Source: Rhizobiales bacterium IMCC20636 (GTDB lineage: Bacteria; Pseudomonadota; Alphaproteobacteria; Rhizobiales; GCA-2746425). Taken from it: a stretch of 64,000 bases of DNA. Positions 39,367-43,802 of the stretch are shown here, piece by piece (positions within the stretch are counted from its first letter, which is position 1; each line of letters begins with the position of its first letter). Location: assembly GCA_016865015.1 (NCBI GenBank), contig CP018226.1, positions 3,565,001-3,629,000 of the forward strand, in the 5' to 3' direction. The translations under genes were made by a program, and so were the position numbers. The notes below the pieces were generated by a model. The model searched no databases. It was not told the origin of the DNA and saw only the letters and a list, made by a program, of their open reading frames with translations.

Positions 39367-39421
39367 GCGTGGCTCCTTGTGGTCACAGAGTGGGTTCTCG
39401 GAACAAGTCCGAGAACGACGG
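39367..39421. repeat. Interspersed palindromic repeat, copy 3 (about 54-bp unit)
   Basis: The core TTCTCGGA-ACAAG-TCCGAGAA is at 39395-39415. GTGGCTC and TCACAGAGTGG before it and CGACGG after it match the reverse complement of copy 2 at 2.2 kb. The two copies thus define the outer limits of the repeat. Confidence 0.85.
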
Positions 39422-39659
39422 CGGTGGGGCTGGGTGAGAGGCTGTGAGCCATTCAATGCGATGTGAATTTCCACAATTTCGCACTTCACCAATCGCTGTG
39501 CCCTTAATCCTAAAATCGCTCCGCCCGTAGTCCTATACCAGGCATCTGCCATACACACTCCCCCGACAAGCTGCATCCCTCTTCGGCACACATTCTGTCA
39601 GCCCCTTTTGCCACATACTCCGTCCCCTCGCCGCCACTCACTCCGTCATACTCTCCGTC

Positions 39660-39682
39660 ATGCTCGGACTTGTTCCGAGCAT
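39660..39682. repeat. Interspersed palindromic repeat, copy 4
   Basis: ATGCTCGGA-CTTGT-TCCGAGCAT has perfect 9-bp arms and is preceded by CTCCGTC, as in copy 5. It lies inside unit 1 of the tandem duplication. Confidence 0.88.
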
Positions 39683-39864
39683 CCATCTCCAGCTAGCCGC
39701 TGATTCGGCCAAGACCGGGCGATAGAATTCCCCGCAAACCGCCGATAAATTGCCCCGGCATCAGCCATACGCAATGGCCCGACAAGCTGCATCCCTCTTC
39801 GGCACATATTCTGTCCGCCATTTTCGTCACGTACTCCGTCCCCCTCGCCGCCACGCTCTCCGTC

Positions 39865-39887
39865 ATGCTCGGACTTGTTCCGAGCAT
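39865..39887. repeat. Interspersed palindromic repeat, copy 5
   Basis: It has the same core as copy 4 (ATGCTCGGA-CTTGT-TCCGAGCAT) and lies inside unit 2 of the tandem duplication, so it probably arose with that duplication rather than by separate insertion. Confidence 0.88.
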
Positions 39888-40012
39888 CCATTTTCAGCCA
39901 GCCGCCGATTTGGCAATATTTATAATTAGCCAAGACCGCACGGTGGGATTCCCCGCAAAACACCGATGAATTGCCCCGGCATCAGCCATGACAAACTATT
40001 GAGGCGCCAAAT

Positions 40013-40324
40013 CTACGTGCAGCAGTATTTCAGTTGAGGGCTGTCATTGCAGCAATCGGTCATGAGAAAACTCAGTAATGCGCCGATGCGTGAGAAATCA
40101 ACTGTGTAACGCAAGCTGCGGGACTGTCTTTCCACCTGAACAAACCCGGCTTTTGACAAGGCAGCCAGGTGAAACGAGGCTCGCGAAGGCGTCGCGCCAA
40201 CCATCTGGGCGATGTCTCCCGCGTTCAGCCCTTCGGGACCTGCGGTGACCAACGCGCGGATGACTTTCAGCCGGTCTGCGTTCGACAGGGCCTGAAACAT
40301 TGCGGCGGCTTCTTCTTCGATCAT
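40013..40324 (-). CDS. ArsR-family metalloregulator-like repressor
   Basis: This 103-residue protein is an ArsR/SmtB winged-helix repressor. The recognition region is NAGDIAQMVGATPSRASFHLAALSKAGFV. It lacks the classical CVC metal site in the recognition helix. Instead the C-terminus is cysteine-rich (MTDCCNDSPQLKYCCT), so it could sense arsenite or another thiophilic metal through its tail. It is divergent from a DUF6428 gene whose product also ends in cysteine pairs. Two copies of the inverted repeat ATTTCAA-N6-TTGAA lie between the genes and are the likely operators, one of them touching its own start codon. Confidence 0.9.
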   Translation of the reverse strand: MIEEEAAAMFQALSNADRLKVIRALVTAGPEGLNAGDIAQMVGATPSRASFHLAALSKAGFVQVERQSRSLRYTVDFSRIGALLSFLMTDCCNDSPQLKYCCT

Positions 40325-40344
40325 ATTTCAACAACTCTTGAATT
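40325..40344. promoter_or_regulatory. ArsR operator candidate, proximal to arsR
   Basis: ATTTCAA-CAACTC-TTGAATT directly abuts the start codon of the ArsR gene. It matches the second site downstream except for swapped bases at the outer end of one arm. Confidence 0.6.
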
Positions 40345-40367
40345 ATAATTTCCACTATGCCATACAT

Positions 40368-40387
40368 ATTTCAATATTCGTTGAAAT
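40368..40387. promoter_or_regulatory. ArsR operator candidate, proximal to the DUF6428 gene
   Basis: ATTTCAA-TATTCG-TTGAAAT is a perfect 7-bp inverted repeat with a 6-nt centre. It ends 16 bp before the DUF6428 start and overlaps nothing else. The AT-rich inverted repeat fits ArsR/SmtB operators. Confidence 0.7.
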
Positions 40388-40403
40388 GACAGGAGAAACA
40401 CAG

Positions 40404-40922
40404 ATGACTTTCACCGCACTGCTGTCCAGTCTTGAACCATTTGATGCCACAGCGCCGCTGGTCTTCAAAATCGATGATCGAATAATCGGCGCAGGCTATC
40501 ATGTCACCGAACTTCGCCATTCGATGTCAACCGGTATCGATTGCGGCGGCAACGTCGATCGTTGGCAAGAAGCCCGACTTCAACTACTCGATGGGACCGG
40601 TGACACCCATATGAGTGTTGGCAAATTCAGAGACATTGTCACAAAGAGCCTCGGCAGACTTCCAGAACTGGCGCAGATCCCGTTGTTGGTTGAGTTTGCG
40701 CCAGACAATGCAGGTCTCAAACTGATGCTCCTGGAGGACCCTGTGCTGCAGGATGGTCAGGTCACACTCAGACTGCGAGACTCCAAGGCCGTCTGCAAAC
40801 CTGCACAGCGCAACGGCGCGCTCAGTGCTCCGAGCGATGCCTGTTGTGGCGTGACGCCCTCTGCAAGTGCCTGCTGCGGTTCAAACACGCCACCAACCGC
40901 TCCTGTAGCGTGTTGCGCATGA
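40404..40922 (+). CDS. DUF6428 family protein with cysteine-rich tail
   Basis: This 172-residue cytoplasmic protein matches, from memory, the DUF6428 family often found in arsenic-resistance neighbourhoods of alphaproteobacteria. The core (residues 1-130) includes AGYHVTELRHSMSTGIDCGG and DTHMSVGKFRDIV. The last 35 residues form a tail with three Cys-Cys pairs (DACCGV, SACCGS, VACCA) separated by Ser/Pro/Thr linkers, which looks suited to binding a soft metal or metalloid. The ATG at 40404 has AGGAG 8 nt upstream; earlier in-frame codons cover the operator. It is divergent from an ArsR gene and probably induced by its ligand. The core function is unknown. Confidence 0.82.
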   Translation: MTFTALLSSLEPFDATAPLVFKIDDRIIGAGYHVTELRHSMSTGIDCGGNVDRWQEARLQLLDGTGDTHMSVGKFRDIVTKSLGRLPELAQIPLLVEFAPDNAGLKLMLLEDPVLQDGQVTLRLRDSKAVCKPAQRNGALSAPSDACCGVTPSASACCGSNTPPTAPVACCA

Positions 40923-41745: not shown

Positions 41746-42150
41746 TCAGTCTTTTCGCCGGATACTGCCAACAAGCTCCATCGCCTCAGCCAGCGTGTTT
41801 GAGATCGTTCCATATTTACGCAAATTCCGATGCAGCAATTCCAGTCGCTGATCAGTCTCATCTGTATCGACCACAATTTCGTAGTCTATACGTACCATCA
41901 TGGGCGGACTGTCCTGCCGGATTCCGTGCAGAGTGATATTCATATCCCGCAGCTTGAAGTCCAGCATGGGAACCACCCGTTCAGCCCCTTTCAACATGCA
42001 GGCGGCAAGGCTTGCCAGCAGCATTTCAGCTGGATTGAAGGCATCATCACGTCCCGCCATGTCTGTATCAAGTACAATCCGCGCTTCTTTGGTACGGGCC
42101 TCGGAGCCGTGGCTGTCGATCCGGCGAGCGGTTACATGGTATTCAAGCAT
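41746..42150 (-). CDS. OsmC-family protein
   Basis: This protein of about 134 residues belongs to the OsmC/Ohr superfamily of thiol-dependent peroxidases. NPAEMLLASLAACMLKGAERV contains the conserved peroxidatic-type cysteine (AAC), and residues from DFKLRDMNITL onward form the second half. Only one of the usual two cysteines is visible, as in YhfA-like subtypes. The ATG at 42150 has AGGA at good distance; 42159 is an alternative. Longer frames run into the thioredoxin gene. It is last in the arsR-arsP-thioredoxin-osmC cluster and may handle organic peroxides or reactive sulfur species. Confidence 0.85.
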   Translation of the reverse strand: MLEYHVTARRIDSHGSEARTKEARIVLDTDMAGRDDAFNPAEMLLASLAACMLKGAERVVPMLDFKLRDMNITLHGIRQDSPPMMVRIDYEIVVDTDETDQRLELLHRNLRKYGTISNTLAEAMELVGSIRRKD

Positions 42151-42211
42151 ATCTGTCATTCCTAAAGGCAATTCGGACGTTGCGGAAAAGCGTTGCTGGT
42201 GTGGCGTCAGC

Positions 42212-42448
42212 TTAAGCTGAAAGCCATTGTTCCAGCTTCGACGTCTCCGGCAAGCCGCCTGCATGAACAAGCTTGCCGTCAACTGCGATTCCCGGGGTGG
42301 ACATAACACCAGCCAAGGCGATGGATTTGACGTCCGAGACCTTTTCCACGTCGACTCTGAGACCAAGTCTGGTGGCAGCCTCTCTCACCATGGCTTCGGT
42401 GGTTTCACACTTTTTGCAGCCAGGGCCGTAGATTGTAATGGATTTCAT
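42212..42448 (-). CDS. Small thioredoxin-like protein (redox-active disulfide)
   Basis: This 78-residue protein starts MKSITIYGPGCKKCETTEAM, with the CxxC redox pair (CKKC) after the first strand. It continues with ALAGVMSTPGIAVDGKLVHAGG, where the cis-proline (TPGI) faces the active site. The size fits the thioredoxin_3 group, which is frequently encoded next to ArsP/DUF318 permeases. It starts 11 bp after the permease stop, so the two are co-transcribed. It may reduce or relay thiols to the membrane permease; that role is inferred from gene pairing. Confidence 0.92.
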   Translation of the reverse strand: MKSITIYGPGCKKCETTEAMVREAATRLGLRVDVEKVSDVKSIALAGVMSTPGIAVDGKLVHAGGLPETSKLEQWLSA

Positions 42449-42459
42449 GGCAGGACCTT

Positions 42460-43518
42460 TCAGAGAAGAAAATTGAACAGATAGCCGGTCGCGAGGATGC
42501 CTAGGGATACCACTGCGATGAAGATCGCGATCAACCGAAGCGTCAGCACCTGTTTGAGGATGATCATTTCGGGCAGCGACAGTGCGATCACCGACATCAT
42601 GAAGGCCAATGTGGTGCCAAGGGCCGCGCCTTTGCCCAACAACGCCTCGGCAATGGGAATGACGCCCGCAGCGTTGGTGTACATCGGCACTCCGATCAGC
42701 ACAGCAGATGGGACCGACCACCATGCCTCACCACCCATGATTTTCAGCATCATCGCCTCGGGAACATAGCCATGAATGGCCGCGCCTATGGCGATGCCCA
42801 CCAGGACCCAGATCCAGACCTTGCCGACAATCTCGCGGACCTGCTCGAGACCGATTTTAATCCGTTCAATTGGCGTCAGTTTCTCTTCAGGCAGGTCGCC
42901 CACGGGACCGGCGTTTAGCGCGCGCACCCAGTCCTGCAGATAACGTTCCAGTCTCATGCGTCCCAGCACGTAGCCGGAAACCGTTGCAATGGTGAAACCG
43001 AAGACCAGATAGATCGTGGCGATTTTCCAGCCGACCAGACCATAGAGCAGCCCAAGGCCAACAGGCCCCACCATTGGCCCTGCAATCAGAAAAGAGAATG
43101 TGACGCCCAGCGGAATGCCCGCAGAAACGAAGCCAATAAACAGTGGCACCGAAGAGCAGGAACAAAATGGCGTCAAAACTCCCAGAAGCGCTGCCATCGG
43201 ATAGCCCCAGATCTGGCGCTTTCCAGCAAGGATGGCACGTGTTTTTTCAGGGCTGAACCAACTGCGCAGCACACCGGTCACAAAGACGATAGCCGTCAGG
43301 AGCATCAGCACCTTTGGTACATCATAGGCAAAAAAGGCAATGGCTGAGCCCGTATGGCTATCGCGCGCAACCGGGAACAGGGATGTCACCCATTCCGAGA
43401 GAGGAATCAGCTGCCCGTACACCAACCACCAGATGACAGCAGCGGCCAGCACGCTCAAATACCAGACCCAGTCCGGCATTTCATGGCGATGCGAGATTCC
43501 CTGTGTTTCAGTGGTCAT
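42460..43518 (-). CDS. ArsP-like permease (UPF0718/DUF318)
   Basis: This 352-residue membrane protein has about eight to ten predicted helices. The conserved loop LTPFCSCSSVPLFIGFVSAG carries the family's cysteine pair, and the second half mirrors it with SAVLIGVPMYTNAAGVIPI. ArsP proteins of this family export trivalent organoarsenicals, while other members have unknown roles. The gene overlaps the upstream arsR by 4 bp and is followed by the thioredoxin-like gene. With ArsR control, efflux of an arsenical or another soft-metal compound is likely. The helical loop between the halves (about 185-230) is cytosolic and charged. Confidence 0.88.
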   Translation of the reverse strand: MTTETQGISHRHEMPDWVWYLSVLAAAVIWWLVYGQLIPLSEWVTSLFPVARDSHTGSAIAFFAYDVPKVLMLLTAIVFVTGVLRSWFSPEKTRAILAGKRQIWGYPMAALLGVLTPFCSCSSVPLFIGFVSAGIPLGVTFSFLIAGPMVGPVGLGLLYGLVGWKIATIYLVFGFTIATVSGYVLGRMRLERYLQDWVRALNAGPVGDLPEEKLTPIERIKIGLEQVREIVGKVWIWVLVGIAIGAAIHGYVPEAMMLKIMGGEAWWSVPSAVLIGVPMYTNAAGVIPIAEALLGKGAALGTTLAFMMSVIALSLPEMIILKQVLTLRLIAIFIAVVSLGILATGYLFNFLL

Positions 43519-43802
43519 GCCATTTCCTGTTCAAGTAACTTTTCCGCGTTCAACACCGCAGTGATGACAGCCATGATTTCTGGTGCAAGATCGGGGTTGC
43601 GCCGAAAGCGCACCCATTGCGCATCGCGCCGATCCAGCACCAGACCAGCTTCGCGCAACACCTTCATATGTCGTGACATCCTGCTTTGGCTGGCATCAAG
43701 CCGCACCATCAGTTCGCAGACGCAATGCTCCCCCCCGTCCCAAACAATGGCAAGGGCGGCACGGCGGGTCGAATCACAAAGGGCGGTCAGAATTTCCTGC
43801 AT
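43515..43802 (-). CDS. ArsR-family arsenic-type repressor
   Basis: This 95-residue ArsR/SmtB repressor contains HCVCELMVRLDASQSRMSRH, that is, the As(III)-binding CVC motif directly before the recognition helix, as in E. coli ArsR. It should release DNA upon arsenite or antimonite binding. It is the first gene of arsR-arsP-thioredoxin-osmC, and its stop overlaps the permease start. A palindrome with ATGCGCC and GGCGCAT arms just upstream of its start is the probable operator. Confidence 0.94.
   Translation of the reverse strand: MQEILTALCDSTRRAALAIVWDGGEHCVCELMVRLDASQSRMSRHMKVLREAGLVLDRRDAQWVRFRRNPDLAPEIMAVITAVLNAEKLLEQEMA

Follow-up and report, generated by a model that had tools for sequence, protein, structure and literature searches.

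A divergent arsR-DUF6428 gene pair with twin operator-like sites, a candidate stand-alone module for handling trivalent arsenic

In the 64-kb stretch of DNA analysed here (the window), a gene for a small ArsR-type repressor and a gene for a protein of the family DUF6428 (PF20001) diverge from a short intergenic region, and both products end in cysteine pairs. The locus raises the question of what the DUF6428 protein does and to which ligand the pair responds. The answer that we prefer, and consider moderately probable, is that DUF6428 is an arsenite-inducible protein that handles As(III)/Sb(III) and that would form a stand-alone two-gene module with an arsenite/antimonite-responsive ArsR. The pair recurs in many bacteria, often inside arsenic-resistance clusters, which makes DUF6428 probably an arsenic-handling protein. 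The aligned sensor site and the gene neighbours point to As(III)/Sb(III) as the ligand; that the tail binds this ligand, and that the protein serves to buffer it or hand it over, is proposed more tentatively.

The gene pair and its intergenic region

The locus comprises the following features:

40013-40324, minus strand: ArsR/SmtB-family repressor, 103 aa, with C-terminal DCC-x8-CC (Cys91, 92, 101, 102)
40325-40344, no strand: putative operator 1, ATTTCAA-N6-TTGAA(TT) (40325-40342 without the bracketed TT), immediately next to the start codon of arsR and spanning the region of its ribosome-binding site
40345-40374, minus strand: sigma-70-like promoter sequence directed toward arsR, TTGAAA-18-AATTAT, which agrees with the consensus at 9 of 12 positions (shuffled mean 0.3) and is no more than a consensus match
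40368-40387, no strand: putative operator 2, ATTTCAA-N6-TTGAAAT, whose 7-bp arms are perfect and which ends 16 bp short of the start of DUF6428
40404-40922, plus strand: DUF6428 (PF20001) protein, 172 aa, ATG at 40404 preceded by AGGAG
40404-40823, plus strand: folded core of DUF6428, residues 1-140 (AlphaFold mean pLDDT 93.4)
40824-40919, plus strand: tail of DUF6428, residues 141-172, predicted to be disordered (pLDDT block means 44-56) and containing the three Cys-Cys pairs

A sequence-only reading of this DNA had described two Cys-Cys pairs ending the repressor, three ending the divergent DUF6428 protein and two copies of ATTTCAA-N6-TTGAA between the genes, and all of this was confirmed, including coordinates and motifs. 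The starts of operators 1 and 2 are 43 bp apart. In the window the exact pattern has three matches, all between arsR and DUF6428 (operator 2 reads on both strands), compared with a mean of 0.02 matches in shuffled windows, and none of 100 shuffles reached three. The word operator is used on the strength of position, symmetry and conservation, and the sites should be taken as putative. The -35 element of the sigma-70-like match toward arsR sits inside operator 2. An upstream TTG would extend the DUF6428 frame to 40338; since this TTG falls inside operator 1 and AGGAG precedes the ATG, 40404 was taken as the start.

As an observation in its own right, the sequence of operator 1 is an inverted repeat that encloses the ribosome-binding region of arsR (AAGAG; 40322-40344, minus strand), so that a hairpin is possible in the arsR message too. 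A wider regulon was considered and set aside: the sole other place with the exact pattern in the 4.79-Mb genome, 703205-703222, is close to ORFs resembling an integrase and IclR and to an ABC ATPase (as judged by eye), with no arsenic genes in the vicinity, and the genome's ACR3 locus (L128) has neither an ArsR match nor an operator match in 12.5 kb.

The repressor and its putative sensor site

The window ArsR, whose C-terminus reads DCCNDSPQLKYCCT, matches the Pfam families HTH_20 and HTH_5 above cut-off, which places it in the ArsR/SmtB winged-helix family, and it scores 58 bits against NF033788 HTH_metalloreg (cut-off 55). Its top match among solved structures is 6j05 (E 2.3e-14), described as AfArsR, an arsenite sensor of Acidithiobacillus ferrooxidans (PMC8470949). 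An ungapped alignment brings Cys91-Cys92 of the window ArsR into register with Cys95-Cys96 of 6j05, at the end of the last helix. According to the passages on this site, Cys95 and Cys96 of AfArsR are essential for As(III) while Cys102 assists (PMC8470949; PMC11868830), the arrangement is named Type 2, and a relative that lacks the third cysteine responds to methylarsenite and not to arsenite (PMC11868830). The further cysteines of the window ArsR, Cys101/102, stand at +9/+10 from the first pair and that of AfArsR at +6/+7; with this second pair the window ArsR would have three or four thiols at its disposal. The testable marks of the AfArsR type are thus seen in the window sequence, except for the exact spacing of the third ligand, and the window ArsR is most likely a sensor of trivalent arsenic/antimony.

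The DUF6428 protein

The window protein clearly belongs to DUF6428, scoring 62.9 bits against the Pfam cut-off of 28.7. Its cysteines are residues 47 and 131 in the core and 147/148, 157/158 and 170/171 in the tail, so that three Cys-Cys pairs are packed into the final 26 residues. In the core, Y32, H33, T35, E36, D46, C47, W54, D63, F75, I78, E97, L124, A129, C131 and P133 are invariant in all 74 aligned sequences.

Such a core could belong to an enzyme acting on a trivalent arsenical, for example by a thiol-dependent conversion, with the tail as a capture arm and His33, Glu36, Asp46, Cys47, Glu97 and Cys131 as the site. We consider this unlikely. The 15 invariant columns, many of them polar, the confidently predicted compact core, the stand-alone copies, which lack a neighbouring pump or reductase and so suggest self-sufficient activity, and a natural fusion to the acetyltransferase ArsN2 (see below) all speak for it; on the other side, a scan of the 74 cores matched DUF6428 in every case and otherwise gave stray weak matches, each in 1-3 members, and no enzyme family, and a sequence search found no solved structure.

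No confident match came out of the fold searches, whether these used the complete model (Foldseek best E 0.079; VIA best Z 2.2, rmsd 3.1, 56 aligned) or the core only (Foldseek E 0.14; VIA best Z 2.2, rmsd 3.1, 59 aligned). Among viral models, a Rhodococcus phage protein matched with E 4.7e-5 and TM 0.49; it has no Pfam family and offers no function. These results are no proof of a new fold and indicate nothing either way. DUF6428 gave nothing in PADLOC and PHROGs, and a literature search by its name returned no paper; in the retrieved portions of the literature on arsK with a hypothetical protein, vicinal cysteines in ars operons, aqpS loci and ars proteins of unknown function, no description of DUF6428 was noticed.

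Pairing and cysteine tails among relatives

A scan of genome contigs with the single window DUF6428 sequence found no relative; a search of the contigs of 84,980 species with a six-row alignment found 312, of which the best 80 were kept; the counts below refer to these 80, which are the relatives most like the window and not a random sample. In all 80, an arsR gene lies divergently just upstream of DUF6428. At least one Cys-Cys pair follows the conserved CKP in every one of the 80 DUF6428 proteins (one pair in 13, two in 56, three in 11). The partner ArsRs likewise all have the first Cys-Cys pair, and 72 of the 80 have the second, the other 8 having further single cysteines. Conservation of the tail among DUF6428 proteins, which the earlier reading had named as a check, therefore held, and with tails in 80 of 80 the objection that they are absent in close relatives fails.

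The tails of these 80 proteins and of the window contain 336 cysteines in 2312 residues, only 14 of them unpaired, and the 161 Cys-Cys pairs compare with a shuffled mean of 35.3 (maximum 51 in 2000 rounds); for the window tail alone, the probability of at least three pairs is about 0.002. The two closest relatives of the window (L045 and L046) have each lost one cysteine, from different pairs, as if two tail pairs might be enough. The Cys-Cys tails are a family-wide trait and no peculiarity of the window pair.

The earlier reading had also taken the matching of the two tails as a clue in itself, and this did not stand. Twelve further ArsRs in the same arsenic loci, which are not divergent partners of DUF6428, all have two Cys-Cys pairs, so that the tail would belong to the ArsR type; they were found by similarity to the window ArsR, and the set is biased thereby. 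Conversely, a partner ArsR may lack the tail: in four Deinococcota loci (L037, L042, L129 and L130), DUF6428 is a separate gene immediately preceded by an ArsR gene, and the product of the latter has an N-terminal CC-x6-C-x-C cluster and no Cys-Cys tail, while the DUF6428 protein keeps at least one pair. That differently built cysteine sensors share the same DUF6428 partner suggests that the ligand (arsenic), and not tail matching, is the common factor.

DUF6428 might instead modulate its own ArsR, competing for or donating As(III) and so setting the induction threshold, much as the weak co-regulator ArsD. The strict divergent pairing would suit such a role, as would the correlated divergence of the two proteins (r 0.90 between ArsR and DUF6428 distances over 81 pairs, a value as high in 0 of 2000 permutations), and in ArsD C-terminal vicinal pairs are described as acting in regulation (PMC4562236). 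However, correlated distances are expected for any neighbours inherited together, the Deinococcota partner is a different ArsR in tandem, in some loci with a small gene between, and the fusion to ArsN2 points to the chemical side. We regard modulation as distinctly improbable.

The fusions are found on plasmids of Deinococcus aetherius and D. ficus, with DUF6428 as the second half:

L035, 5482-6492: ArsN2-DUF6428 fusion protein
L036, 5479-6468: ArsN2-DUF6428 fusion protein

Three further observations concern single loci. In L009 (547-1407, minus strand) an ArsR that partners DUF6428 is fused to a GNAT acetyltransferase, a mirror of the ArsN2-DUF6428 fusions. A small Deinococcota gene whose product ends in a cysteine motif (CxC...CC, CSTC, CPTC) occurs at L129 5759-5968, L130 5726-5884 and L036 5296-5469, where it separates the upstream regulator gene from DUF6428 or from the ArsN2-DUF6428 fusion. 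The pair in the record of Oceanobacillus sp. HTM 045 (L069, 6001-6408) groups with alphaproteobacterial ones, which may reflect transfer or a mislabelled assembly.

Arsenic-cluster and stand-alone groups

Among the best 80 of the 312 relatives, 50 have one or more matches to arsK, arsH, arsC, ACR3, aquaporin, arsN2 or MFS within 6 kb; by hand count, 46 of these cluster loci have arsC, ACR3 or arsH, and 4 have arsK only. Annotated arsenic genes were likewise present in 13 of 16 annotated plasmid loci chosen for diversity, the exceptions being those of Rhizobium tropici (L039), Thermus oshimai (L129) and Deinococcus taeanensis (L130). The other 30 relatives and the window make up 31 stand-alone loci, and no arsenic gene of the reference set occurs within 6 kb of any of them. 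A tree built from the cores, with tails omitted, separates the two kinds by one change with full support; the method is a quick one, and long rows meet where the two kinds join.

The groups also differ in their operators. Twin strict operators are present in 29 of the 31 stand-alone loci (28 of 30 relatives and the window), spaced 38-44 bp in the relatives, and the two exceptions (L077 and L092) have a single strict operator. In the cluster kind, one strict site was found in 31 of 50 loci and none in 19, many of the latter with near variants as judged by eye. The half-sites themselves are alike in the two groups.

Across the 31 stand-alone loci, arsR and DUF6428 are the only ORF clusters that reach 31 of 31; other conserved neighbours occur only among near-identical genomes. 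The pair is present in one of five genomes of the window's genus (the window included), in 27 of 297 of the order and in 12 of 398 of the phylum sample, and the stand-alone pair appears to be a self-contained, patchily spread module. Since arsenic genes are absent nearby in all 31 loci, the ligand proposed for this group is deduced from its sister group and the sensor site.

This leaves room for the view that only the sister group serves arsenic and that the stand-alone group senses another thiophilic metal, such as Cu(I), Hg(II) or Cd(II). The lack of adjoining arsenic genes would fit, and so would the cysteine spacing of the ArsRs, which is CC-x8-CC in most stand-alone members and CC-x6-C in many cluster members. 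Both groups nevertheless have a vicinal pair at the AfArsR position, besides the similar half-sites, and with only arsR and DUF6428 common to the 31 loci, no metal-transport gene was prominent among the ORF clusters as judged by eye; we therefore rate another metal as very unlikely. The proposal of the earlier reading that sensor and target share a thiophilic ligand is supported by the AfArsR-type site and by the arsenic-cluster neighbours of 50 of the 80 relatives, and can be narrowed to trivalent As/Sb as the probable ligand.

A further claim, which we consider unlikely as it stands, is that in alphaproteobacteria, many of them of the Rhodobacteraceae kind, the stand-alone pair suffices by itself for arsenic detoxification and needs no pump: the tail would capture trivalent arsenicals and the conserved His/Glu/Cys core would sequester them or convert them chemically.

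Other genes of the window and genome

A second arsenic-type gene group lies 0.8 kb beyond DUF6428 and was found beside none of the 80 relatives:

41746-43802, minus strand: second arsenic-type gene group, with the four genes below
43515-43802, minus strand: ArsR with HCVCEL box
42460-43518, minus strand: ArsP_1 permease
42212-42457, minus strand: MTH895/ArsE-like thioredoxin
41746-42150, minus strand: OsmC

The locus is not a canonical ars operon, in which arsR accompanies an As(III) pump, an arsenate reductase or both: arsenic reference proteins derived from plasmids matched nowhere in the window, and ArsP_1 lies in this separate group on the other strand. The aldo-keto reductase, 2OG-Fe(II) oxygenase, OsmC, thioredoxin and ArsP_1 of the window had no match in the 80 loci at E 1e-12. 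Elsewhere in the genome an ACR3 pump is encoded at 1142992-1143972. A genome scan gave no match to PF06953 (ArsD), the window DUF6428 included, and only fragments of ArsA (PF02374; 34-44 of 305 positions), so that a hand-over in the style of ArsD to ArsA is unavailable.

On the other side of the pair, the span 39538-39989 consists of two tandem copies of a non-coding block of about 216 bp, each with the palindrome ATGCTCGGACTTGTTCCGAGCAT, and a related inverted copy lies at 39391-39421.

Proposed mechanism

Vicinal thiols are the usual ligand of As(III). In the mechanism that we propose, a ligand-free ArsR dimer would hold both ATTTCAA-N6-TTGAA sites and repress both divergent genes. The DNA would be released once Cys91-Cys92, with Cys101/102 helping, had bound As(III), Sb(III) or a methylated trivalent arsenical. 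The flexible tail of the induced DUF6428, with its vicinal cysteine pairs, would then capture trivalent arsenic, and the core with its invariant Cys47, Cys131, His33 and Glu36 would receive or hold it. DUF6428 might thereby buffer free As(III) or pass it to an exporter encoded elsewhere, for which the ACR3 pump of the genome could be the recipient. The role of buffer or chaperone, already suggested by the sequence-only reading, is what we infer; the many invariant polar residues of the core exceed the need of a passive buffer, which counts against pure buffering.

From its genomic context, DUF6428 appears to be an arsenic-associated family that is widespread and uncharacterised; the window pair is a stand-alone, twin-operator variant. 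Many ars clusters of Agrobacterium, Rhizobium, Sinorhizobium, Roseomonas and Deinococcus have an unassigned part for which the family is now a concrete candidate. The stand-alone group raises the question of how a repressor and one small protein act against arsenic with no adjoining pump, and the divergent promoter with its two defined operator-like sites is a potential part for arsenic biosensors.

Comparison with known systems

ArsD is described as an As(III) metallochaperone and weak repressor (PMC4562236; PMC2440759). DUF6428 resembles it, as far as these accounts describe ArsD, in being small, in its C-terminal vicinal cysteine pairs and in its predicted control by an ArsR. It differs in having no Pfam ArsD match (only DUF6428 was reported at E 0.01), in lacking the N-terminal Cys12/Cys13/Cys18 site given for ArsD (its first cysteine is residue 47) and in that no full-length ArsA partner matched in the window's genome. 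As profile, N-terminal site and partner all fail, DUF6428 is not ArsD.

Within DUF6428 (PF20001), the window copy belongs to the stand-alone, twin-operator group and not to the arsenic-cluster group. Sister DUF6428-ArsR pairs lie inside ars clusters with arsK, arsH, arsC, ACR3 or arsN2 (e.g. L033, L041 and L043), whereas the window pair has none of these adjoining. For Agrobacterium tumefaciens 5A, Table 1 of PMC7965956 gives a 7.0-fold induction of arsR2 (AT5A_25685) by 100 uM As(III). By gene order (compare L033), AT5A_25685 may be the ArsR paired with DUF6428; no gene AT5A_2569x is named in the searched main text of that paper.

With AfArsR, the window repressor shares the winged-helix ArsR family and the vicinal cysteine pair ending the last helix. 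Unlike AfArsR, it has a second cysteine pair at +9/+10 in place of a single cysteine at +6/+7, and it faces a divergent DUF6428 gene across two operator-like sites.
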